DNA of 64,000 nucleotides, taken from contig NC_021184.1 of NCBI RefSeq assembly GCF_000233715.2, positions 4,336,001-4,400,000 on the forward strand, written 5' to 3'. Under the pieces are notes generated by a model. That model searched no databases. It was not told where the DNA came from and was given only the letters and a program-made list of their open reading frames with translations. This DNA is from Desulfoscipio gibsoniae DSM 7213. Lineage in GTDB: Bacteria; Bacillota; Desulfotomaculia; Desulfotomaculales; Desulfallaceae. Made by a program: the position numbers and the translations under genes. Position 1 is the first letter of the stretch, and each line of letters opens with the position of its first letter. This document shows positions 1,547 through 36,251 of this stretch, one piece after another.

Positions 1547-2365
1547 ATGACTGAAAAAATGCTAAAAGATATTGCTGATTATTTAATTAAAATAAGAGAA
1601 ACCATACCTTTGATACACAACATCACCAACATGGTGGCAATGAATGATACCGCCAATATCTTGCTACACATTGGCGCTTCCCCGGTAATGGCCCATGCCC
1701 GGGAAGAAGTTGAGGAAATGGTTGCCCTCTCCGGCGCCCTGGTTCTAAATATCGGCACCTTAACACCAGAGCTGGTAGAGAGTATGCTTTATGCCGGAAA
1801 GAAGGCTAACCAACTCGGTATTCCCGTGGTACTGGACCCTGTAGGGGCAGGTGCTACCAGTTTGAGAACCCAAAGTTCATTACGTATTCTCAATGAGGTA
1901 AATGTAACTATTTTACGTGGTAACGCTGCGGAAATAGCTATTTTAGGTGGTCTGGATGCCACCGTTAAGGGTGTGGACGCTGCCGGGGTATCAGCCGGAA
2001 GCGGAGAGATTGCCCGGCTGGTGGCTGAAAAATTTGGCCTGACTGTAGCTATTACCGGAAAAATTGATGCTGTGTCTGACAGCAGACGGAGTATTCTCAT
2101 AGAAAACGGACACTGGATGATGGGCGGGCTTACCGGAACAGGCTGCATGTCCACAGCCCTTACGGGCGCCTTTGCTGCTGTTTGCCCTGACCCGCTAACC
2201 GCTGCCGCCGGCGCCCTGATTTCCTTCGGTATCGCCGGTGAAGCAGCTGCGCTAGGAGCACCCTTGCGGCCTGGTTCCTACAGGGTAGCCTTGTTCGACC
2301 AAGTCTATGACCTTACTCCAGAGAAAATTATTTCAGGCGCCAGGATAACCATAAAAGGGGATTAG
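1547..2365 (+). CDS. thiM: Hydroxyethylthiazole kinase ThiM
   Basis: The 272-residue protein phosphorylates 4-methyl-5-(2-hydroxyethyl)thiazole with ATP, a salvage step to thiamine phosphate. Family marks include PLIHNITNMVAMNDTAN near residue 22, VVLDPVGAGATSLR near 95 and the active-site loop GGLTGTGCMSTALTGAF near 195 with its cysteine. Length is normal for ThiM. It stands alone here: thiE and thiD, the usual partners, are not in this window, so it serves salvage together with genes elsewhere. Regulation is by the upstream TPP riboswitch. An AGGAAGGCGG ribosome binding site precedes the ATG. Confidence 0.96.
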   Translation: MTEKMLKDIADYLIKIRETIPLIHNITNMVAMNDTANILLHIGASPVMAHAREEVEEMVALSGALVLNIGTLTPELVESMLYAGKKANQLGIPVVLDPVGAGATSLRTQSSLRILNEVNVTILRGNAAEIAILGGLDATVKGVDAAGVSAGSGEIARLVAEKFGLTVAITGKIDAVSDSRRSILIENGHWMMGGLTGTGCMSTALTGAFAAVCPDPLTAAAGALISFGIAGEAAALGAPLRPGSYRVALFDQVYDLTPEKIISGARITIKGD

Positions 2366-2533
2366 CTTTCGGCCGTAGTCTGTCCCTCCCCATGAAACAC
2401 AGCAGATCCGATCCGCATCGATCTCTCCATGGCTTCTGGCGATGGCTTCAATAGGCGTCCCCGGTATAATTCTGATATTATTCAATACGATGGCACCCAG
2501 ATCTCTCTTCGGTGTGTGAATCGATACAGTTGA
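2333..2533 (-). pseudogene. Relic resembling the C-terminus of a B12-binding radical SAM protein (bzaD-like?)
   Basis: The minus strand downstream of bzaC holds a 66-codon open frame with no start, bounded by stops. It contains IRIIPGTPIEAIARSHGEID and ends GRKLIPFYGYPGA. The pattern GIRIxPGTxLxxIAxxEGxI is typical of the C-terminal part of B12-binding-domain radical SAM enzymes. In known anaerobic benzimidazole operons bzaC is followed by bzaD, which I recall as such an enzyme. I infer a bzaD-like gene was here and only its tail remains. The last codons overlap the 3' end of thiM on the other strand. The identification rests on one short motif. Confidence 0.4.
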
Positions 2534-2547
2534 TCAATCAACGCCCG

Positions 2548-4080
2548 TCACTCCAATAACAATATAGCGAAATATTTTACATAATCATCTTTTTCCGGTA
2601 GTGTCTTCAAGGAAATTCCATTTCTCCGAAGAGTTTCAAAAACATCGATGCCGGCGGATTCCATGGAAGGCCGTGCATCTTTATGGTTCTTGCAATTTCC
2701 TCTGCCGCCGCATTTCGGGCAAATACTGCAGGGACCGGCCCAAAGAGAAAATGCTTTATAATAGCCCGTTTTAAAGGCTGTGCGCTCTGCTTGCAGCACC
2801 ATCCTCTGAAAATCACGGGTTGGCGGCACGCCTTGCAGCAGCAGGCATTTTGAATAATCCTTTAATAATGCCCGTGTTTTTTCAGGTTTGATGCTATTAG
2901 GGGGACAATGGGGAAGGTTGTAGCCGTCACAGCCGAATTCGCATTTGAGCCCTACCCACTCCGGTACGTGGATTGAATCCACCTCAATTGGCTTTACTAC
3001 TTGAAAGCCCAAGTTCTGTATCTGTACCGACAATTGCTGCAATGCACTAATGCACAAATCCGCCAGCTTTTTCGATTGCTTTGCCGCCACCAGAACAGCG
3101 GTATCTGATTCCAAAGGGATCCATTCCGTCGCTATAAAGCCTGCATCCCTCAGCTGCTGCCGCACCCAGGCAGCCGTATAGACCTTGCCGTTGTAAGTGT
3201 TCACCAGCATATTTAGATCTGACAAGGCCGCCTTTTCCGGTTTATGCTCCATGAAAAAATCATGAACGATCAGCAGCCCATCCTCTGCCAGGTGAGCAGC
3301 TGCTTCGGAAAGCACATGCCCGGTTTCTGCCTCAGCGAAGGCATGAACAATATTGGATAAAATTACCAAGCTGTATTGCTTTTTTTGTAATTCCCAGGGC
3401 TCCAATATATTGGTGGGTCGATATTGAATACGGTCCGCATAAGCCCTGCCGGCATGGGTTTCTTCCGCGTATTCCAGAACTTGAGCCATATCCAGCAGCG
3501 TAGCCTTGGTGTCAGGAAACTGCCTTAAAAATTCGGTAGAAAAGGCGCCCAAGCCTGAACCTACATCCAGAATATTTCCTTGCAGCTTAAGCTGGGAAAA
3601 AATCGGCAATATCTGTCCGATTTTATTCTTAACTATACAGTCCATCGCCCGGCAATAACGGCGAAAACGCTGTTTGACGGCTTCCTCCGGCTCATCCATA
3701 GGCGGAAGAAGCACCCGGGTGCCTTTTTCCAAGCATTGATGCAGACTTTTCCAATGCTCAACCAGGTATTTACGCCACAGGATGGAGTCGCCCTGATAAG
3801 CTTCAGTACCCTGAATCAGGTATTTTCGAGAGAGCTTTGTATTGGTACAATACCCGTCAGCTTCAAAGACCAGTCCCAAGGTAGACAGGATATGAATATA
3901 GCGTTTTAAACTTCCAAAGTCATATTTTAATTCCCTGGCCAGCTCCGCCACGGGTTTTCCACCGGGCTCCAACCGGTTAAAGAATCCCTGCTCCACAGCA
4001 GTAAAAAGCACCTCCGAGTACCAATAGCCTGTAGCCAGATCTTCCAGATATTGAGGATTCATATCCTGCGGATTATGCAT
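2548..4080 (-). CDS. bzaC: BzaC-like methyltransferase fused to DUF2284 (anaerobic benzimidazole O-methyltransferase)
   Basis: The N-terminal 330 residues are a SAM-dependent O-methyltransferase: a winged-helix dimerisation part, then the SAM motif ILDVGSGLGAFSTEFLRQFP and later LLIVHDFFME. The C-terminal 170 residues are a DUF2284 metal-binding domain, with CEFGCDGYNLPHCPP and CSICPKCGGRGNCKNHKDAR supplying many cysteines. This fusion beside cobT matches BzaC, which methylates 5-hydroxybenzimidazole for the cobamide lower ligand. I chose the ATG at 4080 because it overlaps the cobT stop by 8 bases (translational coupling); an earlier in-frame ATG at 4122 would overlap cobT by 50 bases. bzaA and bzaB, which make the substrate, are not in the window. 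The role of the DUF2284 part is unknown. Confidence 0.8.
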   Translation of the reverse strand: MHNPQDMNPQYLEDLATGYWYSEVLFTAVEQGFFNRLEPGGKPVAELARELKYDFGSLKRYIHILSTLGLVFEADGYCTNTKLSRKYLIQGTEAYQGDSILWRKYLVEHWKSLHQCLEKGTRVLLPPMDEPEEAVKQRFRRYCRAMDCIVKNKIGQILPIFSQLKLQGNILDVGSGLGAFSTEFLRQFPDTKATLLDMAQVLEYAEETHAGRAYADRIQYRPTNILEPWELQKKQYSLVILSNIVHAFAEAETGHVLSEAAAHLAEDGLLIVHDFFMEHKPEKAALSDLNMLVNTYNGKVYTAAWVRQQLRDAGFIATEWIPLESDTAVLVAAKQSKKLADLCISALQQLSVQIQNLGFQVVKPIEVDSIHVPEWVGLKCEFGCDGYNLPHCPPNSIKPEKTRALLKDYSKCLLLQGVPPTRDFQRMVLQAERTAFKTGYYKAFSLWAGPCSICPKCGGRGNCKNHKDARPSMESAGIDVFETLRRNGISLKTLPEKDDYVKYFAILLLE

Positions 4081-5164
4081 TTGCCATGCCCCCGGTATTT
4101 TCCGGTTCCGTAACTCCTGCATCCGTAAAAGTCAGCATTTTGTAAATAACCCGGGAAGCTGTTTCCACGATATGCATAGCCAAAGCTGCACCGGTACCTT
4201 CTCCTAAACGCAAGTTTAGATCCAGAAGTGGTTTGAGACCCAATTCTTCCAGCATGTATTGATGTCCCGGTTCCATGGATTGATGGGCTGCAATCATATA
4301 GTCAATGGCATTGGGTGCCAAGTTTTTGGCTACCAAGGCCCCGGCGGATGATATTAGTCCGTCTACTACCACCGGTATGCGATAGTAAGCCGCACCCAGA
4401 ATCAATCCGGCAATTCCGGCAATTTCAAAGCCGCCCACCTTGGACAATACATCCAAAGCATCTTTGGGATCCGGTTTATTTAAAGCAATAGCCTTTTCGA
4501 TGACCTGCACTTTGTTGTCCAAAGCACTGTCATTGATACCGGTTCCCCGACCGGTTACCTGCCGGGGGGATCGACCGGAAAACACCGCCAGAATCGCACT
4601 GCTTGGCGTCGTATTGCCGATCCCCATGTCTCCTGTGCCCAACAGTTCTATGCCGCTTTTTACCAGTAAGCCGGCAATTTCTATACCTGCTTCCAGACCC
4701 TGCACCGCCTGCTCCCGAGTCATTGCCGGACCCTTGGCCATATTCTGCGTACCATAGCCAACTTTATAAGAAAGTATCTTTTTTTGCTCCACCAGAACGC
4801 TTAGATCCACTGCAACCCCCATGTCTACCACGGTCACACCGGCACCTGCTGTTTCTGCCAGAACATTGATGGCCGCACCACCGGCAACAAAATTATTTAC
4901 CATCTGCCGGGTAACTTCCTGGGGAAATGCACTTACACCTTCAGCTGCAACACCATGATCCCCGGCCATGGTCACCACCATTTTCTTCGCTACAGAGGGC
5001 GTCATGCTTTCATTAATGGCAGCCAGTTGCTCTGCCAAGTCCAGCAAATCCCCCAGACTATTATGCGGAATGGCCAGATCATCCAGCCGTTTCCTGGCTT
5101 TTACCCGCCAGGCCTGTTCCACCGGTCGAATGCCGGATAATACTTGTTCCAAAGATAAATGCAT
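4073..5164 (-). CDS. cobT: Nicotinate-nucleotide--dimethylbenzimidazole phosphoribosyltransferase CobT
   Basis: The 363-residue enzyme transfers ribose phosphate from nicotinate mononucleotide to the benzimidazole lower ligand, giving the alpha-riboside phosphate for CobS. Family segments visible are AGDHGVAAEGVSAFPQEVT near residue 70, LLGTGDMGIGNTTPSSAI near 175, and LRLGEGTGAALAM near 320 with the catalytic glutamate. Length matches the family. It lies 16 bases after cobS and overlaps bzaC, so cobS-cobT-bzaC is one operon under the cobalamin riboswitch. An AAAGGTG site precedes the ATG. Confidence 0.97.
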   Translation of the reverse strand: MHLSLEQVLSGIRPVEQAWRVKARKRLDDLAIPHNSLGDLLDLAEQLAAINESMTPSVAKKMVVTMAGDHGVAAEGVSAFPQEVTRQMVNNFVAGGAAINVLAETAGAGVTVVDMGVAVDLSVLVEQKKILSYKVGYGTQNMAKGPAMTREQAVQGLEAGIEIAGLLVKSGIELLGTGDMGIGNTTPSSAILAVFSGRSPRQVTGRGTGINDSALDNKVQVIEKAIALNKPDPKDALDVLSKVGGFEIAGIAGLILGAAYYRIPVVVDGLISSAGALVAKNLAPNAIDYMIAAHQSMEPGHQYMLEELGLKPLLDLNLRLGEGTGAALAMHIVETASRVIYKMLTFTDAGVTEPENTGGMANA

Positions 5165-6627: not shown

Positions 6628-8628
6628 TTAGTTTTCTAGATCCTTTTGTTTGTCAACCGGCATTCGTTCTCCCTTTGGGCCGCCCATACCGGGCTCGCCA
6701 CCGGGAGCACCAGGACCACCCATTCTGCCAGGACCGCCCATTTTGCTGATCTGGACACCAGTGTCTGAAATACTGGTGGCAGCTCCGGAAAGAGTAACGC
6801 TCACAACCTTAGTGCCGGCAGTGTAATTTCCATCTGTATACAGTCCATCAGTATTGTTTCCACTTGCGCTGCCGCCGGAGTATAGAGTGTAAGTTTTGCC
6901 CTGCTCCAGTTCGGGTGTGCTAATGACGATGGACTGATAGTCCTTGGCGGGGGCAAAGGTTAAGATCGTTTTTCCGCTCTCATCCATCAGGCTCACCAGA
7001 GTACCGGCCTTTTGAACAGATGAATAAGCTACCAGCAATGCGTTCTGGCTGGAAGAGTTGGAGAAGTTCTGGGTCATGCCGGAACTACCTGCTGCCACTA
7101 AAGTTCCGCCGGTAATTTCTGCGACACCGTTGTAGTCCAACGGGCCGTTGCCATTGTTGGTGGGACCGTTAACCAGCACCATACCGCCGTCCATATACAG
7201 CGAGCCGTTGGAGTCGATACCGTCGCCAGAGGCATTAACGACTACATAGCCGTCGGTGATACGGATAAAGGTGCTGTCGCTTCCATCAGTGCTATTCTCT
7301 TCAGTAAAGTGATTCTCCCCGGGTCTTCTGCCAAGAGCAGAACCGTCACTGCCGCCCGCAGCATTGAAGCCGTCATCCTTAGCGGTTACATGGATTTTAC
7401 CGCCGCTTACCGTGATGGTGGTTCCCTCCAGACCTTCATAACTCTGCGAAATGTCAATGGTACCACCGTCCACCACCAGATTAGAATCGGCATGAATACC
7501 GTCATCACCGGATGATATGTTCAGGATCCCCGCACTCATGATAAAGTCACCATTGGAATGAATCGAATCATCCGAAGAATCAATGTTCATCTTTCCGCCG
7601 GTTACATAGATAGCGGTTCCTGCCTTAATACCTTTAGCACTATCGGTACTATCTGAACTATCTGTACTGTCCTCTGTAGCTGTAGAAGTAGTTTGATTGT
7701 CCCATTTACCCCAACCGGGTCGCATATTGCCCTTATTGTCGGTACTGGCGTTGGCACTGCCTCCCCCAGTTTTGATGGTCGCTGTGCCGTTAGTAATTTG
7801 GAGTACCGTTGCCGCCTGAATGCCGTCATTACCCGCGGCAATATCAAATGTGCCGCCATCAATGGAGACCCAGCCCTTGTCAGCATCCTCATCATTGTTT
7901 GATTGGATGCCGTCTCCTTGCCCAGCATTAATTACAAATGCGCCGTCATAGATAGCGACTGAATCGCGCCCCCGCAGACCGTCATTAAAAGCGGTTACCT
8001 TAATAGTACCACCGGTAATGACCAGATCATCCTTAGAGGCGATACCATTGTTATATTTGGCGGTGACAATCAGTGCACCGGTGCCATTAATGATCAGGTC
8101 ATCCTTACTAAAAATAGCTGCATTTGGCTCATCTTCACCGTCGGCCAGGGTATAGGCTGCACCGTCGGTTATAGTATTGTTGGTATCGTCGGCCAAGGTC
8201 AGAAAGACCTTATCAGCCTGTTTAACATAGATGGGGGCGCTATCCGAGCAGGTAATAGACACATCGTTCAATACAATCTGTACTTTATCGGAGTCAGCAG
8301 CGTCCACGATGATCTGTCCGTCGGCCAGTGTGCCGGACAAAACATAGACGCCGGCAGCGGTGATAGTTAGCGTGCCGCCCGAAGCGGTTGCCCCCGAGCC
8401 CGAGACAGCCACAGACGAGCCATTTAGGGAAATTTTGGTTGCAGTTTCCGCATCCCAGGTTCCTGCCAGATCGCGGTCACTGTAGCCAGGATCGATGATA
8501 GCCATTGCATCAGCAGTAGTTGTGCCGGTGGATAAGGCAGCTGACGAGCTGGTCTTGCAACCACTAAGCATCGAGATGATGAACATAGTAATTAGCAATG
8601 TAATTAATTTACCGGATCTAAAGCGCAT
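6628..8628 (-). CDS. Lipoprotein with carbohydrate-binding DUF4353-type beta-helical repeats
   Basis: The 666-residue product starts at an ATG at 8628 behind AAGGAGG. It has a lipoprotein signal peptide (hydrophobic stretch ending ISMLSGC), so it should be anchored on the outside of the cytoplasmic membrane. The body repeats motifs of the type GGTIxVTAxxDGIxxxxxxxVxGG, with Asp-rich turns such as SSDDSIHSNGD and SGDDGIHADSN. This is the pattern of the carbohydrate-binding DUF4353 right-handed beta-helix family. The C-terminus is a low-complexity Gly/Pro/Met tail (GRMGGPGAPGGEPGMGGPKG). It is last in an operon with DUF4956 and VTC genes, a pairing known from other Firmicutes, often beside CotH-type kinases. 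Function is not established. Confidence 0.8.
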   Translation of the reverse strand: MRFRSGKLITLLITMFIISMLSGCKTSSSAALSTGTTTADAMAIIDPGYSDRDLAGTWDAETATKISLNGSSVAVSGSGATASGGTLTITAAGVYVLSGTLADGQIIVDAADSDKVQIVLNDVSITCSDSAPIYVKQADKVFLTLADDTNNTITDGAAYTLADGEDEPNAAIFSKDDLIINGTGALIVTAKYNNGIASKDDLVITGGTIKVTAFNDGLRGRDSVAIYDGAFVINAGQGDGIQSNNDEDADKGWVSIDGGTFDIAAGNDGIQAATVLQITNGTATIKTGGGSANASTDNKGNMRPGWGKWDNQTTSTATEDSTDSSDSTDSAKGIKAGTAIYVTGGKMNIDSSDDSIHSNGDFIMSAGILNISSGDDGIHADSNLVVDGGTIDISQSYEGLEGTTITVSGGKIHVTAKDDGFNAAGGSDGSALGRRPGENHFTEENSTDGSDSTFIRITDGYVVVNASGDGIDSNGSLYMDGGMVLVNGPTNNGNGPLDYNGVAEITGGTLVAAGSSGMTQNFSNSSSQNALLVAYSSVQKAGTLVSLMDESGKTILTFAPAKDYQSIVISTPELEQGKTYTLYSGGSASGNNTDGLYTDGNYTAGTKVVSVTLSGAATSISDTGVQISKMGGPGRMGGPGAPGGEPGMGGPKGERMPVDKQKDLEN

Positions 8629-8641
8629 ATCATTATCCTCC

Positions 8642-9319
8642 TTATAATTCCACCTTGGCTGTGGGCACCCGTCCACAAGTAAGGTTTAAATTACCGTTGC
8701 GGCAGCGGATCTCATCAAGGAATTTTTTTTCATTAGACTGGTTTTCCAAAACAATGTGATATTGCAGTTCATACAGACTTCCCATATTGGTAGTCTTTAC
8801 TTTGATGAGTTCAACGCTCTTTGTATATTTTTGAAACAGGTCATCGAAAATGCCGGAATAGTCCAGGCTCTCCGGAATGGTAATTTTAAGTTCCTTTTCT
8901 GTTTTTTTTCGCTCGCCAAAGCCCGTGGTGGATAGTAGAATTGTCATTGCCCCGATGATGACCAGAAATATCGCGGCAATGCCCAGATAGCCCATGCCGG
9001 TGGCCAGGCCAACAGCCATCGCCAGGAAAATACCGCTGATCTCCCGGGCGCTGCCGGGTACCGAGCGGAACCGTACCAGACTAAAGGCACCCATCACAGC
9101 CACGCCGGTACCAACATTGCCGTTAACCAGCATAATAACAAGTTGTACCATAGCCGGCAGCAGCGCCAGCGTCACCACAAAGTTTTTAGCATAAATGCTG
9201 CGGTACATATAAATATACGCCACACCAATGCCAAGGATGAGAGAGGCCAACGTACAAAGCAGCAGACCCTGTAATGTGATGGAGTTGGCTGCGTTGGTTG
9301 ATAAAATACTTTCAAGCAC
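8642..9319 (-). CDS. DUF4956 membrane protein
   Basis: The 225-residue product has four hydrophobic segments in its first 150 residues (for example LLCTLASLILGIGVAYIYMY and IIGAMTILL), then a cytoplasmic alpha/beta domain of about 80 residues. SLVRFRSVPGSAREI in a loop near residue 80 is typical of DUF4956. The GTG start at 9319 overlaps the end of the VTC gene by 8 bases, so the two are translationally coupled, which argues that the proteins act together. The family is regularly found beside VTC-type polyphosphate polymerases. Its biochemical role is unknown; a membrane partner or exit path for the VTC product is a guess. Confidence 0.85.
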   Translation of the reverse strand: MLESILSTNAANSITLQGLLLCTLASLILGIGVAYIYMYRSIYAKNFVVTLALLPAMVQLVIMLVNGNVGTGVAVMGAFSLVRFRSVPGSAREISGIFLAMAVGLATGMGYLGIAAIFLVIIGAMTILLSTTGFGERKKTEKELKITIPESLDYSGIFDDLFQKYTKSVELIKVKTTNMGSLYELQYHIVLENQSNEKKFLDEIRCRNGNLNLTCGRVPTAKVEL

Positions 9320-10034
9320 TTTGCATTCCCCCTAAATCAGCGGAATTAATCAAATAATATTTATAGCAGTTTCCATATTTAGAATAGGATCTGGGAAATA
9401 TCCCAAGTTTCGTAAGCCCCTGGCTTAGCCATAAAGGCATTGCCCCCGGGATCTTTATTTCCATCAAGTGTTGCCCTTCCCCTAAAAGTGTGTTTCCCCA
9501 CGCTCCCTTGGAAAGATCCAAAATGCTCTCCCGCCAGCGGATGTTCGTATCGAAGGTAATGCGCAGGTTCGCATTTTCACTACTGCACATCGCTATACGG
9601 TCGTAGGCAATATATACCCTGGGGATAGGCCGGTAAAAATCTAAAAACCAGTCAATCTCCTTTAAAATTTGACAAAAAGTGTGCGGTTGTTTTCGCTGCA
9701 GCAAATACTGTTCGGCTTCCCGCAGTGTCATCGGCACCCGCCGTTTGTAGACGATGCCCTTGTATTTCTTTTTCAATTCCACAAACACTGTATCTTCTTT
9801 CCTTGGCACGCCGTAGCTGCGAAGCCGAAGTTTTTCTTTGTAGACCGGCTTTTCTATTGATGCTCGGATTAACCGGTAATCCAGGGTATCGAAGTAAATA
9901 TTACAGATGGTATGACACCCATATTCATTTATTACCATCCTACCTTGCAATAATTTTGTTAATGCTTGATACTGCTGTTCATTCAATAAATACTTTTTCT
10001 CATATCGTTTAAATACGTTCTGATATTGTGCCAT
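9312..10034 (-). CDS. VTC-domain polyphosphate polymerase family protein
   Basis: The 240-residue product is a stand-alone VTC (triphosphate-tunnel) domain. Visible features are FKRYEKKYLL at the N-terminus, YKEKLRLRSYG near residue 75, VFVELKKKYKGIVYKRRV near 90, and LMEIKIPGAMPLWL with SYSKYGNCYKYY at the C-terminus. These supply the basic and acidic tunnel residues that bind phosphate chains. In yeast the Vtc4 relative makes polyphosphate from ATP; for bacterial versions next to DUF4956 the activity is presumed. The ATG at 10034 has TGGAGG upstream; 15 further in-frame codons lie before it. It heads the VTC-DUF4956-lipoprotein operon. Confidence 0.88.
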   Translation of the reverse strand: MAQYQNVFKRYEKKYLLNEQQYQALTKLLQGRMVINEYGCHTICNIYFDTLDYRLIRASIEKPVYKEKLRLRSYGVPRKEDTVFVELKKKYKGIVYKRRVPMTLREAEQYLLQRKQPHTFCQILKEIDWFLDFYRPIPRVYIAYDRIAMCSSENANLRITFDTNIRWRESILDLSKGAWGNTLLGEGQHLMEIKIPGAMPLWLSQGLTKLGIFPRSYSKYGNCYKYYLINSADLGGMQSA

Positions 10035-10088
10035 ATTTGATACCTCCAATCGGTGTTTTATCCTGATATGCTCTATCATACAGCGTTT

Positions 10089-10132
10089 AACTGAAATTAG
10101 TCTGAAAAAACCGTTTCAGACTAATTTCAGTT
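10089..10132. promoter_or_regulatory. Perfect 19-bp inverted repeat between divergent operons, built from 11-bp-phased CTGAAA repeats
   Basis: The left arm (10089-10107) and right arm (10114-10132) are exact complements around a 6-base loop. Inside each arm the hexamer CTGAAA occurs twice with start points 11 bp apart. OmpR-type regulators bind tandem direct repeats phased at about one helical turn, so each arm looks like one site facing one of the two divergent operons. The adjacent response regulator is the obvious candidate binder. A role as a bidirectional terminator is less likely, since no gene ends here. Confidence 0.6.
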
Positions 10133-10202
10133 TTCTTCATTAAAATGATTGCAAGGAAAATGTACCGCATTTATAATAAAAATCGACAAGGCGGGGATAT
10201 AT

Positions 10203-10880
10203 ATGCATGTGTTAATCGTGGAAGATGAAGTGCGGCTCGCAGATGCCCTGGGACAGATTATGTCTGAGCAGAAGTACGCGACGGATATTGTATATAACGG
10301 TGAAGACGGGTTGAATTACGCACTAAGCGGACAATATGATGTGATCGTGCTGGATGTGATGCTGCCAAAGCGCAGCGGCTTCGAGGTGGTACGGGAGTTG
10401 AGAAAGCAAAAAAACGCCACTCCGGTGCTACTGCTCACTGCAAGGGACGAAATCACCGACAAGGTCACGGGGCTGGACTGCGGCGCCGACGATTACATGA
10501 CTAAACCCTTTGCGCCGGAGGAGTTGCTGGCCCGCATCCGCGCCATTTCCAGAAGGCAAGGGGATGTAGTACTGGAGGAGTTGACTTTTGCGGATCTGAG
10601 GCTGAACCTGTCTACATATGATTTGCACCAGGGAGAAAAATCGGTGCATCTGGGCTTTAAAGAATTTGAAGTGCTGAAGATCCTGATGGCCAACCCGAAA
10701 ATGGTGGTTCCGAAAGAAGATTTACTAACTAAGGTTTGGGGTGTGGAATCCCACGCGGAGGATAACAATGTGGAAGCTTACATCTCATTTCTGCGCAAAA
10801 AATTCTTTTTTCTCGGCTCCAAAGTGAGTATCGGCACCATTCGGAAAGTAGGCTACCGGCTTGCGGCGGAAGAACTATGA
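10203..10880 (+). CDS. OmpR-family response regulator
   Basis: The 225-residue product starts at the ATG at 10203 behind AAGGCGGGG; the upstream in-frame ATG at 10149 is less likely. The receiver domain has acidic pair ED at 7-8, phosphoacceptor Asp51 (VIVLDVMLPKRSG) and the conserved Lys in MTKPF. The C-terminal winged-helix has the OmpR form, ending SIGTIRKVGYRL. It overlaps the kinase start by 4 bases. It sits divergent from the VTC operon with the phased repeat in between, so it probably regulates that operon and itself. Confidence 0.95.
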   Translation: MHVLIVEDEVRLADALGQIMSEQKYATDIVYNGEDGLNYALSGQYDVIVLDVMLPKRSGFEVVRELRKQKNATPVLLLTARDEITDKVTGLDCGADDYMTKPFAPEELLARIRAISRRQGDVVLEELTFADLRLNLSTYDLHQGEKSVHLGFKEFEVLKILMANPKMVVPKEDLLTKVWGVESHAEDNNVEAYISFLRKKFFFLGSKVSIGTIRKVGYRLAAEEL

Positions 10881-12112
10881 TTAAAAGGCTGCGCAGGAAA
10901 TTCATCCTTATCAATATGGCGCTGATCAGTCTGGTGCTGCTCATTGTCTTTGCCATCATCTTCATGTCAAACTACCAGCGGCTGCAGTCGGAAAGCCGCG
11001 ACGCCTTGCAACGGGCGATTGAGCAAAGAATAGATATGCCACCGCCGAAACCGGAAATAGGCAGGCTACACCCCAGGGAAAAACCATTTCCGATTACACC
11101 GGTTTTCTCTGTCGTGCTTGACGAAAACAATAACATTCTTTATACAATACAGCAAAATGTGTCTATATCCGATGATGTTCTAGCAAAAGCCGTAAAAAAA
11201 GCAATGGATTCCGAGTCCCCCGAAGGTATTCTGCATGACTTGAATCTACGCTTTCTCCGGAGAGACATTGGTAATGGGACAAAAATTGCATTTGCCGATC
11301 GGGGTCATGAGATCCACTCTATGCAAAGCCTTTTCCTTATATCGTTGGTGGTGGGTACTGGCGGCCTGGTAGCCTTCTTTTTCATCAGCATGTTCCTATC
11401 CGTTTGGGCACTGCGCCCGGCGGAAAAGGCCTGGGAACAGCAGCGACAATTTGTGGCAGACGCTTCCCATGAACTTAAAATGCCATTGACAGTGATTCTG
11501 GCCAACAGCAGTATTCTATTGGACCACCGACAAGATACCATTGCCCGGCAAATCAAATGGGTGGAAAACACACAGGTCGAAGCCATTCGAATGAAAAAGC
11601 TGGTGGATGATCTATTGTTTTTAGCTAAATCCGACGCAGCCCGGGTTCCCCCGGTCTATTCGGAATTAAATTTCAGTGATACGGTATGGAGTTGTCTGCT
11701 GCCCTTTGAACCAGTGGCGTTCGAGCAGGGTGTCACCATCAACGCCGACATCGAACCTGATATCGCTCTGACAGGTAACGAGAGTCAGCTTAAACAATTG
11801 GTGGCGATCCTACTGGATAACGCCTGTAAATATGCTGGTGATAAAGGTATCGTTTCGGTAACGCTGGTGCGGGAGCAAAAAAAAGTGTGCCTAACAGTAA
11901 ATAATACCGGCACTCCTATCCCAGCGATAGACCTGCCCCATATTTTTGAACGTTTCTATCGTACAGACAAGTCCAGGGCGCGTGAACAGGGCGGCTATGG
12001 TTTGGGGCTTGCAATTGCCAAAAGCATCGTAGAAAATCACCATGCCAAGATCACTGCAGAAAGCACGAAAGATCAAGGAACGACTTTTACGGTGCATTTT
12101 TCCGAGTTATGA
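10877..12112 (+). CDS. Sensor histidine kinase, partner of the OmpR-type regulator
   Basis: The 411-residue membrane kinase has a transmembrane segment at about residues 12-30, a roughly 120-residue extracytoplasmic sensor part, a second membrane segment near 150-170, then HisKA and HATPase domains. The H-box reads DASHELKMPLTVIL, with KM in place of the usual RT. The N-box LDNACKYAG and the G-box GYGLGLAIAKSIVENH are intact. The sensor part matches no domain I know. Start overlaps the regulator stop (ATGA). Confidence 0.94.
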   Translation: MIKRLRRKFILINMALISLVLLIVFAIIFMSNYQRLQSESRDALQRAIEQRIDMPPPKPEIGRLHPREKPFPITPVFSVVLDENNNILYTIQQNVSISDDVLAKAVKKAMDSESPEGILHDLNLRFLRRDIGNGTKIAFADRGHEIHSMQSLFLISLVVGTGGLVAFFFISMFLSVWALRPAEKAWEQQRQFVADASHELKMPLTVILANSSILLDHRQDTIARQIKWVENTQVEAIRMKKLVDDLLFLAKSDAARVPPVYSELNFSDTVWSCLLPFEPVAFEQGVTINADIEPDIALTGNESQLKQLVAILLDNACKYAGDKGIVSVTLVREQKKVCLTVNNTGTPIPAIDLPHIFERFYRTDKSRAREQGGYGLGLAIAKSIVENHHAKITAESTKDQGTTFTVHFSEL

Positions 12113-12792: not shown

Positions 12793-12948
12793 GGGCTACC
12801 GGACCATATTTCTTATTATCCGGTCAGGCAAGCAGCTACTTTCGACATATCGGATTTAACATAAATTTTTTTGTCCTAGTCTAAAACTTTTAAGAGGATA
12901 GATGGTTAATAAATAATGGAAGGCTTAATAAGGAGGATTCCCATAAGG

Positions 12949-14790
12949 ATGCGTAATTTTGATTTAAAAGAGTTGTTTGAATTCAAACCGGAGCAAGGTA
13001 TCGTTTTCTTGAAAGACAAACAAATGATTTTATTTCATGATATTGCCATAGACTTTTTAAAAGATGAATTAATACGAACCCTGGGTAAGGACCTCGCCCG
13101 TGGTGTATTGACTCGTTTCGGTTACCGCTGTGGTTATCATGATGCGAAGATTATAACTAAAACGTACGGCAAGGAAATCAGACTCCTCAATCTTGGACCC
13201 ATCTTGCATCGATGGAGAGGAATCGGTAATGTATTGATTGATAAAAAATTAGAATTTTGTAAGGAGACCGAACATTATCTTGTAAAAGGCAGATGGGAGA
13301 AATCGGTGGAGGCAGAGCATCACGTGGATAAATATGGTAAAGGCAAACAACCCGTCTGCTGGATTTCCGCGGGCTACGCCAGCGGCTTTGCAAGTGGTTT
13401 TACCGACTTAAATGTTATCTGTGATGAGTTGACCTGTGTGGGAAAAGGTGACGATTACTGCAGCTGGGAATTGCGCTCGGTTAAAAGCTGGGGAAATCTT
13501 GCGAATGAAAAAATCCAATATTATAAGGTAAACTATAATTTTAAAGATCTCCAGACAATGCTGGCGGAAGACAGATCTATAGATATCCACCGGCGGCTGA
13601 CACAATTAGTCCTTGCGGGCCACGGTGTGGACGTCATTGCCGGTACTTTGAGCGAAATCATAAAATGTCCGGTTATTATACTAAACAAAAATCTCGATGT
13701 GATTGCCGCCTGCAATAGTGAAAATATTGACCCGGACCAGCTTATTTCGTTAAAAAATTTTTTAAGTGAAATCCTTCAAAAGACTGGCTTTCTACAAACG
13801 GATGTAATATTACAATACCCTTTTTTTATTTCCCCCATCGTTGGCGGCGCAAAATTTTGGGGCTATATTGCCGTACACGAAACAGTGAACTTGTCCGAAC
13901 TGGAGATGGTGGCAATTGAGCATGCCTGCACGGTCTGTGCAATGGATAATTTGAAACGTGATGCTACGATAGAAACGGAACTACGCATTAAGGGGGATTT
14001 GCTGGACTATATTTTATCGTTGGATAAAGGGACAGATCCTGAACTGATTGATAAAGCTCTCCGGTTGGGATACAACCTGTCAAAACCACACCGGGTCATG
14101 GTAATAGACCTGGTTGGCGAAAACGAAAAAAACAGCAGTCAACTTTCTTCTGGATTTGTTGTGGAGATTGTCAAGTCCGGTGTTGGTACCCTTATCGAAA
14201 CAATGATTTCTGACAGCTTGGTAGCCGTTAGAAAGAATAGAATTGTAATTATCCTTTGTACAGACGGGACAGGCGTACATAGCGACATCGCCAAAAAGAT
14301 TCAAGAGTGGGTTGTCAGCAACACCCCGGAATGTTCTGTAAATGTGACCTGGGGACGAGAATGCCTTGAATTTGCCGATTACAGACCGTCTTTTGAAGAT
14401 GCATGGCAGGCAGCCGATATAATAAAAAATTTGGGCCAAAGCAACAAATGTTCAGGATATGACGAACTTGGCATTTATGCTTTATTGTGGGAATCAAATA
14501 ATAAGGAGAAAATAAGGGGGTTTGCCCTATCAAAGCTGGGGTGTTTGTTGGAATACGATGACAAAAATAATTCTAGTTTGCTAAAAACACTTGAAGTTTA
14601 TCTGAAAAAAAATTGCAACCTCAGGGAAACGGCTGCGGCGTTATATATTCACGTTAATTCGCTTAAATACCGACTTAAAAGGGTAAAGCAACTTACCGGC
14701 TTTGACTTTTCCAACGAAGAAGACCGTTTTCAAAGTCAGCTTAGCTTACGGTTATTGAAAACTTTAACCGGTAACCGGAAAGATAACTAA
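12949..14790 (+). CDS. XylR_N/V4R ligand-sensing regulator with PucR-type helix-turn-helix
   Basis: The 613-residue regulator has an N-terminal XylR_N plus V4R sensor (residues about 1-200; GYASGFASGFTDLNVICDEL and the zinc-site-like CVGKGDDYCSWEL), a middle region like PucR/CdaR regulators, and a C-terminal PucR helix-turn-helix (LRETAAALYIHVNSLKYRLK). XylR_N and V4R domains bind small aromatic or related ligands; the usual sigma-54 activator AAA domain is absent, so it acts on ordinary promoters. The ATG at 12949 has AAGGAGG at slightly long spacing; an upstream ATG at 12916 lacks a site. The dehydrogenase gene downstream is the likely target. Confidence 0.85.
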   Translation: MRNFDLKELFEFKPEQGIVFLKDKQMILFHDIAIDFLKDELIRTLGKDLARGVLTRFGYRCGYHDAKIITKTYGKEIRLLNLGPILHRWRGIGNVLIDKKLEFCKETEHYLVKGRWEKSVEAEHHVDKYGKGKQPVCWISAGYASGFASGFTDLNVICDELTCVGKGDDYCSWELRSVKSWGNLANEKIQYYKVNYNFKDLQTMLAEDRSIDIHRRLTQLVLAGHGVDVIAGTLSEIIKCPVIILNKNLDVIAACNSENIDPDQLISLKNFLSEILQKTGFLQTDVILQYPFFISPIVGGAKFWGYIAVHETVNLSELEMVAIEHACTVCAMDNLKRDATIETELRIKGDLLDYILSLDKGTDPELIDKALRLGYNLSKPHRVMVIDLVGENEKNSSQLSSGFVVEIVKSGVGTLIETMISDSLVAVRKNRIVIILCTDGTGVHSDIAKKIQEWVVSNTPECSVNVTWGRECLEFADYRPSFEDAWQAADIIKNLGQSNKCSGYDELGIYALLWESNNKEKIRGFALSKLGCLLEYDDKNNSSLLKTLEVYLKKNCNLRETAAALYIHVNSLKYRLKRVKQLTGFDFSNEEDRFQSQLSLRLLKTLTGNRKDN

Positions 14791-35890: not shown

Positions 35891-35905
35891 TTTTGGTGGA
35901 GGCGG
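35891..35905 (+). repeat. Putative attachment-site core at the ssrA 3' end
   Basis: This is the ssrA 3' end plus three flanking T, the counterpart of 29339-29353. tmRNA 3' ends are common targets for tyrosine integrases because the crossover restores the gene. Confidence 0.4.
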
Positions 35906-36251
35906 GGGGAGTTGAACCCACCGTCCGAAAGAAGAGCCACAAGACCTTCTACGAGCATAGATTGTGTTTTAAACTTCGCTCCGTTGGCGCCCACAACCAG
36001 GCTTCGCTGGAGCTATCTCGATGAATGTCCTCTTTAGCCTCCGAGAATTGGCTAAAGAGTAAGCCTGCTAATATGACACCCCATGATCCGCTCCACAGGC
36101 AAGTGCGGGTGGGATGCTAGCTGCAATTAGGCAGCTAGAGCGTAATTTTCTTCGTTGGCAGTTATATTAACTGTCCACCGTTTAACGGGCTGATGGAACC
36201 CCGGCTCGCTTATCCTGCCACAACTTCCCCCGTCGAAACCATTTCGCCCCC
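35894..36251 (-). ncRNA. ssrA: tmRNA (transfer-messenger RNA)
   Basis: On the minus strand the RNA begins GGGGGCGAAATGGTTTCGAC and ends with the acceptor arm GTTCAACTCCCCCCGCCTCC and ACCA encoded. The 3' CCCCGCCTCC region pairs with the 5' GGGGGC. The tag codons at 36159-36127 read GCC AAC GAA GAA AAT TAC GCT CTA GCT GCC TAA, giving ANEENYALAA. Length is 358 bases. It rescues stalled ribosomes together with SmpB, encoded just upstream on the same strand. Confidence 0.97.

Follow-up and report, generated by a model that had tools for sequence, protein, structure and literature searches.

A VTC-DUF4956 gene pair with a Cthe_2159-type lipoprotein and a divergent two-component system in Desulfoscipio gibsoniae: a candidate membrane-coupled polyphosphate module

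The synthesis of polyphosphate in bacteria is commonly ascribed to PPK enzymes, and where a 2023 review treats bacterial synthesis, it names PPK1 and PPK2 only. Bacterial relatives of the yeast VTC proteins have been described beside pel genes: an accessory set of CotH, a polyphosphate polymerase (PPP), DUF4956, and DUF4832 accompanies pel in streptococci and clostridia (PMC7112168; papers are cited here from excerpts). A locus with VTC and CotH was reported for C. perfringens (PMC2879425). The pel-linked set of Streptococcus intermedius is SIR_1591-1594. Deletion of its DUF4956 or CotH gene alters aggregation and Pel level, one streptococcal DUF4956 member has been read as MgtC plus ACT, and the excerpt states that its authors did not find the three-gene synteny away from pel (PMC12345266). 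Cthe_2159 of Clostridium thermocellum (4peu, 4phb) is described as a β-helix that binds cellulose and polygalacturonic acid (pectic acid), and both Cthe_2159 and CotH domains have been reported in anaerobic gut fungi (PMC6712302). Here, we describe a locus in a 64,000-nucleotide stretch of the sulfate-reducing bacterium Desulfoscipio gibsoniae DSM 7213 (NC_021184.1, positions 4,336,001 to 4,400,000; this whole stretch is called the window below) in which genes for a VTC protein, a DUF4956 membrane protein, and a Cthe_2159-type lipoprotein lie head to head with those of a response regulator and a histidine kinase.

The locus shares with the pel-linked set a VTC enzyme, a DUF4956/MgtC-ACT membrane protein, and an exported partner, but differs from it in that the partner is Cthe_2159 instead of CotH, in that it has its own two-component system and operator, and in that PelG gave no match in the genome, which places it outside the pel-linked group. 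We read it as a split, membrane-coupled polyphosphate polymerase/exporter that would feed a surface partner and be switched by the two-component system, a reading to which we give a probability of roughly 0.45. VTC-DUF4956-CotH beside pel and the MgtC reading are known in print; a link of Cthe_2159 with VTC (and DUF4956), the exchange of partners, and the operator were not found in the open part of the literature, which is the part covered.

On the minus strand, the VTC gene (9312..10034, 240 aa; PF09359, E 1.3e-38, 133.3 bits against a cut-off of 23) is followed by that of DUF4956 (8642..9319, 225 aa, GTG start; PF16316, E 2e-16), with which it shares 8 nt, and by the lipoprotein gene (6628..8628, 666 aa; PF14262, E 4.1e-106, 354.5 bits against a cut-off of 25.8). 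The latter starts 13 nt past the DUF4956 stop codon, and an AAGGAGG Shine-Dalgarno sequence lies within these 13 nt. On the plus strand, the OmpR/PhoB-type regulator (10203..10880, 225 aa; PF00072 and PF00486, alignment with 15 relatives) and the membrane histidine kinase (10877..12112, 411 aa; PF00512 and PF02518, likewise aligned) run in the opposite direction. All five genes were recovered by domain profile search with the domains and in the order proposed by the first-pass annotation, VTC and regulator being head to head; the range which that annotation had assigned, 9312-12112, holds VTC, regulator, and kinase and leaves DUF4956 and the lipoprotein outside. The true start of VTC is likely ATG 10034 since a start at 10079 would fall within the -10 box of the VTC operon itself and since the model of the longer version has pLDDT <50 at residues 1-4 and 6-16. 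The regulator and the lipoprotein likely start at ATG 10203 and ATG 8628, respectively, their longest reading frames beginning at TTG 10149 and at 8676.

The VTC protein matches yeast Vtc4 at E 1.3e-20 in a profile search. The equivalents of 13 Vtc4 positions are R25, K29, R85, R87, K103, K112, Y159, R161, R173, E207, K209, S233, and K234 (numbering of the long reading frame), and all of them are kept in 50 of 50 family members, save K234, the equivalent of K458, which is kept in 49. R264, R266, and E426 are the residues altered in a catalytically impaired yeast complex, and K458 has been named as catalytic (PMC9911596, PMC4641920). The model (pLDDT 89.8) retrieves yeast VTC proteins from the PDB at Foldseek ranks 1-13, ahead of cyclases and triphosphatases. 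The remaining mapped positions likewise count among the tunnel residues of Vtc4. The protein is a predicted polyphosphate polymerase, and the view of its VTC domain as a polymerase agrees with the polymerase residues checked. The likeness to the yeast complex lies in the tunnel fold, the catalytic residues, and the tie of the enzyme to a membrane protein. Neither an SPX domain nor the three-helix VTC membrane domain was found, PF09359 being the sole match at E<=0.01 in a protein of 240-255 aa; in contrast to yeast, the enzyme is paired with a distinct membrane protein that resembles MgtC. As a separate observation, the VTC gene Clo1313_1989 of C. thermocellum has been listed as a weak convergent-mutation target under ethanol adaptation (PMC10503014).

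The DUF4956 protein is predicted to be an MgtC-like membrane protein with a C-terminal ferredoxin/ACT-like domain (model pLDDT 77.9). When the DUF4956 profile was aligned by hhalign with one of MgtC proteins of relatives (sequences from 19 of 23 loci, picked by a motif script), a probability of 97.0 % was obtained (E 1e-10, 198 columns) versus at most 1.1 % for seven control profiles; the membrane half alone gave 86.0 % and the C-terminal half alone 15.8 %. PF02308 (MgtC) was matched at E<=10 by 55 of 78 DUF4956 members, the best at 7.7e-6, and the next family by 6. R83 and R85 are invariant in all 78. The protein of the window differs from MgtC/SapB in lying below Pfam recognition, with no PF02308 among its own matches at E<=10, and in belonging to a family that is near-obligately paired with VTC. 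Its model gave no Foldseek match at E<=0.001, and a PDB sequence search gave no match with the protein and only chance-level rows with the profile. The VIA-align rows cover residues 138-224 only, so that the soluble domain alone is compared; the best is ribosomal protein S6 (Z 9.4, rmsd 2.7, 85 aligned), the ACT chain 5fii has Z 8.3 (rmsd 2.3, 74 aligned), and MgtC is not among the matches listed.

Two genome samples were surveyed, one of 398 Bacillota genomes for the phylum and one of 85 for the class. VTC occurs in 69 of the former and 12 of the latter. DUF4956 is present in 70 of the 398, among them all 69 with VTC; these and the other genome co-occurrence counts and Fisher values given here are without correction for kinship. 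At length, 81 of 94 VTC places were studied (the window and 80 regions), the 13 omitted being mostly weak, fragmentary, or near contig ends. In 80 of the 81 loci, DUF4956 belongs to the VTC cluster and has the orientation of VTC; VTC comes first in 74 and DUF4956 in 6, and one of these (L112) has CotH between the two genes. In 13 loci they share the 8-nt overlap. The exception, L052, belongs to a sister species and is its second copy. VTC and DUF4956 are thus a near-obligate pair. According to the first-pass annotation, its proposal would be refuted if the genes were unlinked in nearly all relatives. This was not borne out: besides the pairing, a regulator and a kinase lie nearby in 40 of 81 loci. 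The repeated occurrence of the set throughout the phylum also exceeds what chance would give.

The third gene of the set varies. CotH was recognized in 45 loci, Cthe_2159, as in the window, in 27, both in 1, and neither in 8. The two are nearly mutually exclusive within single loci, although one genome may carry both. On the VTC+DUF4956 tree, the partner switches 4 times, whereas 500 shuffles gave 21.8 switches on average and never fewer than 15; therefore, the partners mark two clades with few exchanges. Among the 398 genomes, Cthe_2159 was found in 47, of which 41 have VTC, and CotH in 59, of which 52 have VTC; a single one of the 69 VTC genomes has neither. A lipobox-like motif is present in 25 of 30 Cthe_2159 reading frames and a hydrophobic N-terminal stretch in 47 of 47 CotH reading frames. 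The lipoprotein of the window falls within the Cthe_2159 family by its PF14262 domain and its predicted export via the lipobox LSGC, and it matches the solved relative (4peu/4phb) at E 2.3e-45 in a PDB sequence search. It has a C-terminal tail rich in Gly, Met, and Pro, and the Cthe_2159 proteins of the surveyed loci are acidic and have similar tails. Accordingly placed in a family of β-helical surface proteins, it differs from its C. thermocellum relative, which is known only as a binder of cellulose and pectic acid, and by sequence it and CotH are the two exported partners that replace each other in the module. Two loci deserve separate mention. CotH and Cthe_2159 stand in tandem behind DUF4956 in L059 (4107-8174), the only one of the 81 with both, and in L055 (5951-7932) the Cthe_2159 gene is split into two reading frames, probably a single gene broken by a frameshift or an assembly error. 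In the D. gibsoniae genome itself, VTC and DUF4956 occur once more, at 1.0 Mb (L046, region G000:C1:1003671), in the order VTC-DUF4956-CotH-regulator-kinase, all in one direction; a single cell therefore carries both partner types.

Where regulator and kinase accompany the pair, they are divergent and upstream in 21 loci, upstream in the same direction in 14, and downstream in 5; only one of the two was seen in 7 further loci and none in 34. They were recognized by similarity to the pair in the window, so that unrelated OmpR-type systems nearby could have been counted too. The kinase has two membrane segments flanking an extracytoplasmic region of about 110 residues, and by profile its catalytic part most resembles PnpS and PhoR, with scores below the cut-off. 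Direct repeats with a period of 11 bp are usual for OmpR/PhoB-type sites. The regulator is assigned to this family by its receiver and Trans_reg_C domains, its cognate kinase, and such repeats. In the region between the regulator and VTC genes, a perfect inverted repeat of 19 bp was found, longer than chance would give, as none in 500 shuffles exceeded 10 bp. It forms a candidate double operator, CTGAAATTAGTCTGAA-N8-TTCAGACTAATTTCAG (10091..10130, no strand), with two inverted arms each consisting of a CTGAA repeat pair with an 11-bp period. Exactly 10 nt from it lie the -10 hexamers TATGAT of the VTC operon (10075..10080, minus strand) and TAAAAT of the regulator-kinase operon (10141..10146, plus strand). 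The two operons thus share a predicted bidirectional promoter region in which one regulator would serve two -10 promoters lacking a -35 box. As in PhoB/OmpR systems, a receiver is combined with a winged helix, and direct repeats with an 11-bp period stand beside a -10 box without a clear -35 box; the difference is that here two inverted repeat pairs serve two divergent promoters and that the operator appears specific to the module. The divergent genes and the shared candidate operator support the earlier proposal of a dedicated two-component system regulating the module.

The operator was searched for as a 24-base palindromic pattern in a GTDB-based collection of 84,980 species genomes, from which the records of the window genome may be omitted. 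Sixteen sites were obtained in 14 stretches, each of which holds genes of the VTC-DUF4956 module, and 13 sites lie directly upstream of VTC, including those of L152, where the VTC start is truncated, and of L151, where the VTC frame is intact by translation. One stretch (L156) shows the regulator side only since it begins at the operator, and L149 and L158 each carry a second site. The -10 boxes were counted at 18 of 21 listed sites, from related genomes and hence not independent, after dropping the second or displaced sites L149:4754, L152, and L158:12 and after counting identical DNA once (L158/L119, L162/L053, L153/L055, L149/L054). On the VTC side, TANNNT occurs exactly 10 nt from the operator at 18 of 18 sites and reads TATGAT in 16; on the regulator side it does so at 16 of 18, and the two sites that lack it (L149:2198 and L052) have no divergent regulator gene. 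By these matches, the candidate operator is specific to the VTC-DUF4956 module. That the inverted repeat is a terminator was rejected, as it lies between divergent genes, is AT-rich, and is flanked by -10 boxes at a constant distance to either side; a mobile repeat was rejected for the window genome, in which exact matches to CTGAAA-N5-CTGAAA occur at this site only. A single operator common to all loci was likewise rejected: in other subclades, different repeats with an 11-bp period, for example TTAAGATTCATTTAAGA, stand close to a -10 box of similar type.

A few extra operator targets were seen. One site of Desulfoscipio geothermicus BM5 lies upstream of genes for a GtrA-domain glycosyltransferase, a phosphodiester glycosidase, and a small protein; in L149 of this species (2312-4671), these three are flanked by two operator copies. 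The second site of a Peptococcaceae genome (L119/L158) is 10 nt from a TATGAT box and precedes a gene for an exported DUF2680 protein. The extra targets, as predicted from these sites, all point toward the envelope. In the L152 region (1100-2250), which lies downstream of MacAB-like genes, an operator copy and a truncated VTC start are followed by genes for an exported, Gln-rich protein that weakly resembles DUF2680 and for a lipoprotein; by its sequence, the region is a decayed duplicate of the module.

The preferred reading builds on what the sequences provide, namely, the gene set, the near-obligate pairing, the partner exchange, the operator and promoter geometry, the conserved tunnel residues, and the MgtC relation. 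Cytosolic VTC would build polyphosphate, or a similar phosphoanhydride chain, from a nucleoside triphosphate; polyphosphate is the probable product. DUF4956 would dock this product to the membrane and pass or present the chain outward, so that the pair would be a prokaryotic equivalent of the yeast VTC complex, divided over two proteins; the outward passage is plausible, with a chance a little below even. The product would be received at the cell surface by the exported partner, which is a Cthe_2159 lipoprotein in the window and a kinase-fold protein of the CotH type in other loci, the β-helix perhaps acting as a cation-dependent binder of polyanions, which we propose tentatively. The kinase would sense an extracytoplasmic cue, and the phosphorylated regulator, which we infer to be an activator and not a repressor, would bind the double operator and turn on its own operon and the VTC operon via the two symmetric -10-only promoters. 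If this is true, bacteria possess a second, membrane-coupled and regulated class of polymerase with a surface receiver, a route of polyphosphate or phosphoryl groups to the bacterial exterior is explained, and DUF4956 as well as many Cthe_2159 and CotH proteins are given a role. The promoter-operator region offers a ready handle for finding the inducing signal.

Several observations weigh against this reading. The resemblance of DUF4956 to Vtc1-type membrane domains is too slight for a common pore to be claimed, and 8 of the 81 loci have no recognized partner. E27, an acidic-patch residue, is invariant in the family where yeast has T198, and 13 of the 21 divergent loci lack an operator of the CTGAAATTAGTCTGAA-N8-TTCAGACTAATTTCAG type. 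The available description of Cthe_2159 does not name polyphosphate among its ligands (PMC6712302), and that of S. intermedius reports no aggregation effect for deletion of the VTC gene SIR_1593 (PMC12345266). VTC as a replacement of PPK1 is unsupported: PPK1 is commoner in VTC genomes (20 of 75) than in others (10 of 80, p 0.04), a comparison that covers PPK1 and not PPK2 and for which the 80 genomes were taken in handle order and not at random.

VTC, DUF4956, and the partner might instead tune or decorate an exopolysaccharide or another envelope glycan, polyphosphate being internal or a mere phosphate donor. The position of VTC-DUF4956-CotH beside pel (PMC7112168) fits this, as do the change in Pel level and aggregation caused by two of three S. 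intermedius genes (PMC12345266), the polysaccharide binding of Cthe_2159 (PMC6712302), and the operator in front of the D. geothermicus glycosyltransferase and glycosidase. As a general context, however, pel linkage is unsupported: only 3 of 75 VTC genomes have a PelG above the cut-off, and in 2 it is close to VTC, so that most CotH loci (43 of 45) have no PelG nearby and these 43 carry the three-gene synteny, unlike what is stated in PMC12345266. No recurring glycan synthase family is found among the neighbor clusters listed, either, and we consider a glycan function somewhat unlikely.

A broader form of the preferred reading would see in VTC-DUF4956 a general prokaryotic machine for polyphosphate secretion with CotH or Cthe_2159 as interchangeable receivers outside. 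CotH kinases would draw phosphate from the secreted polymer where ATP is absent, and Cthe_2159 β-helices would hold it through cations. It fits with the genomes of other phyla in which VTC, DUF4956, and a partner are present, namely, Bacteroides ihuae with Cthe_2159 and Corynebacterium glutamicum and Methanosarcina acetivorans with CotH (presence at the genome level). Such generality is unlikely at present; if true, the Cthe_2159 family would be recast from binders of plant polysaccharides to receivers of a self-made phosphate polymer.

It is doubtful that the module instead serves phosphate or ATP homeostasis, with VTC storing cytosolic polyphosphate, DUF4956 regulating VTC or the ATP synthase, and the lipoprotein being a separate adhesin of the same regulon. 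The MgtC relation of DUF4956 would agree with this, Salmonella MgtC acting on ATP synthase and PhoR (as cited in PMC12345266), and so would the proximity of the kinase profile to PnpS and PhoR. Yet 73 of 81 loci retain an exported partner, both partner families co-occur with VTC genome-wide, and exact matches place the operator at no other gene of the window genome. That bacterial VTC is another triphosphate-tunnel enzyme (a polyphosphatase or nucleotide enzyme) and no polymerase is very unlikely, for although activities vary among such enzymes and E27 matches what we take from PMC4641920 to be the acidic-patch position, the remaining basic residues on the polymerase side are present, as is the equivalent of K458, and the model resembles Vtc4 most closely.

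Two further features of the window lie outside the module. A regulator gene at 12916-14790 encodes XylR_N, V4R, GGDEF-like, and PucR-type domains, which fits the aromatic degradation reported for the species, and a tmRNA gene is located at 35894-36251 on the minus strand.

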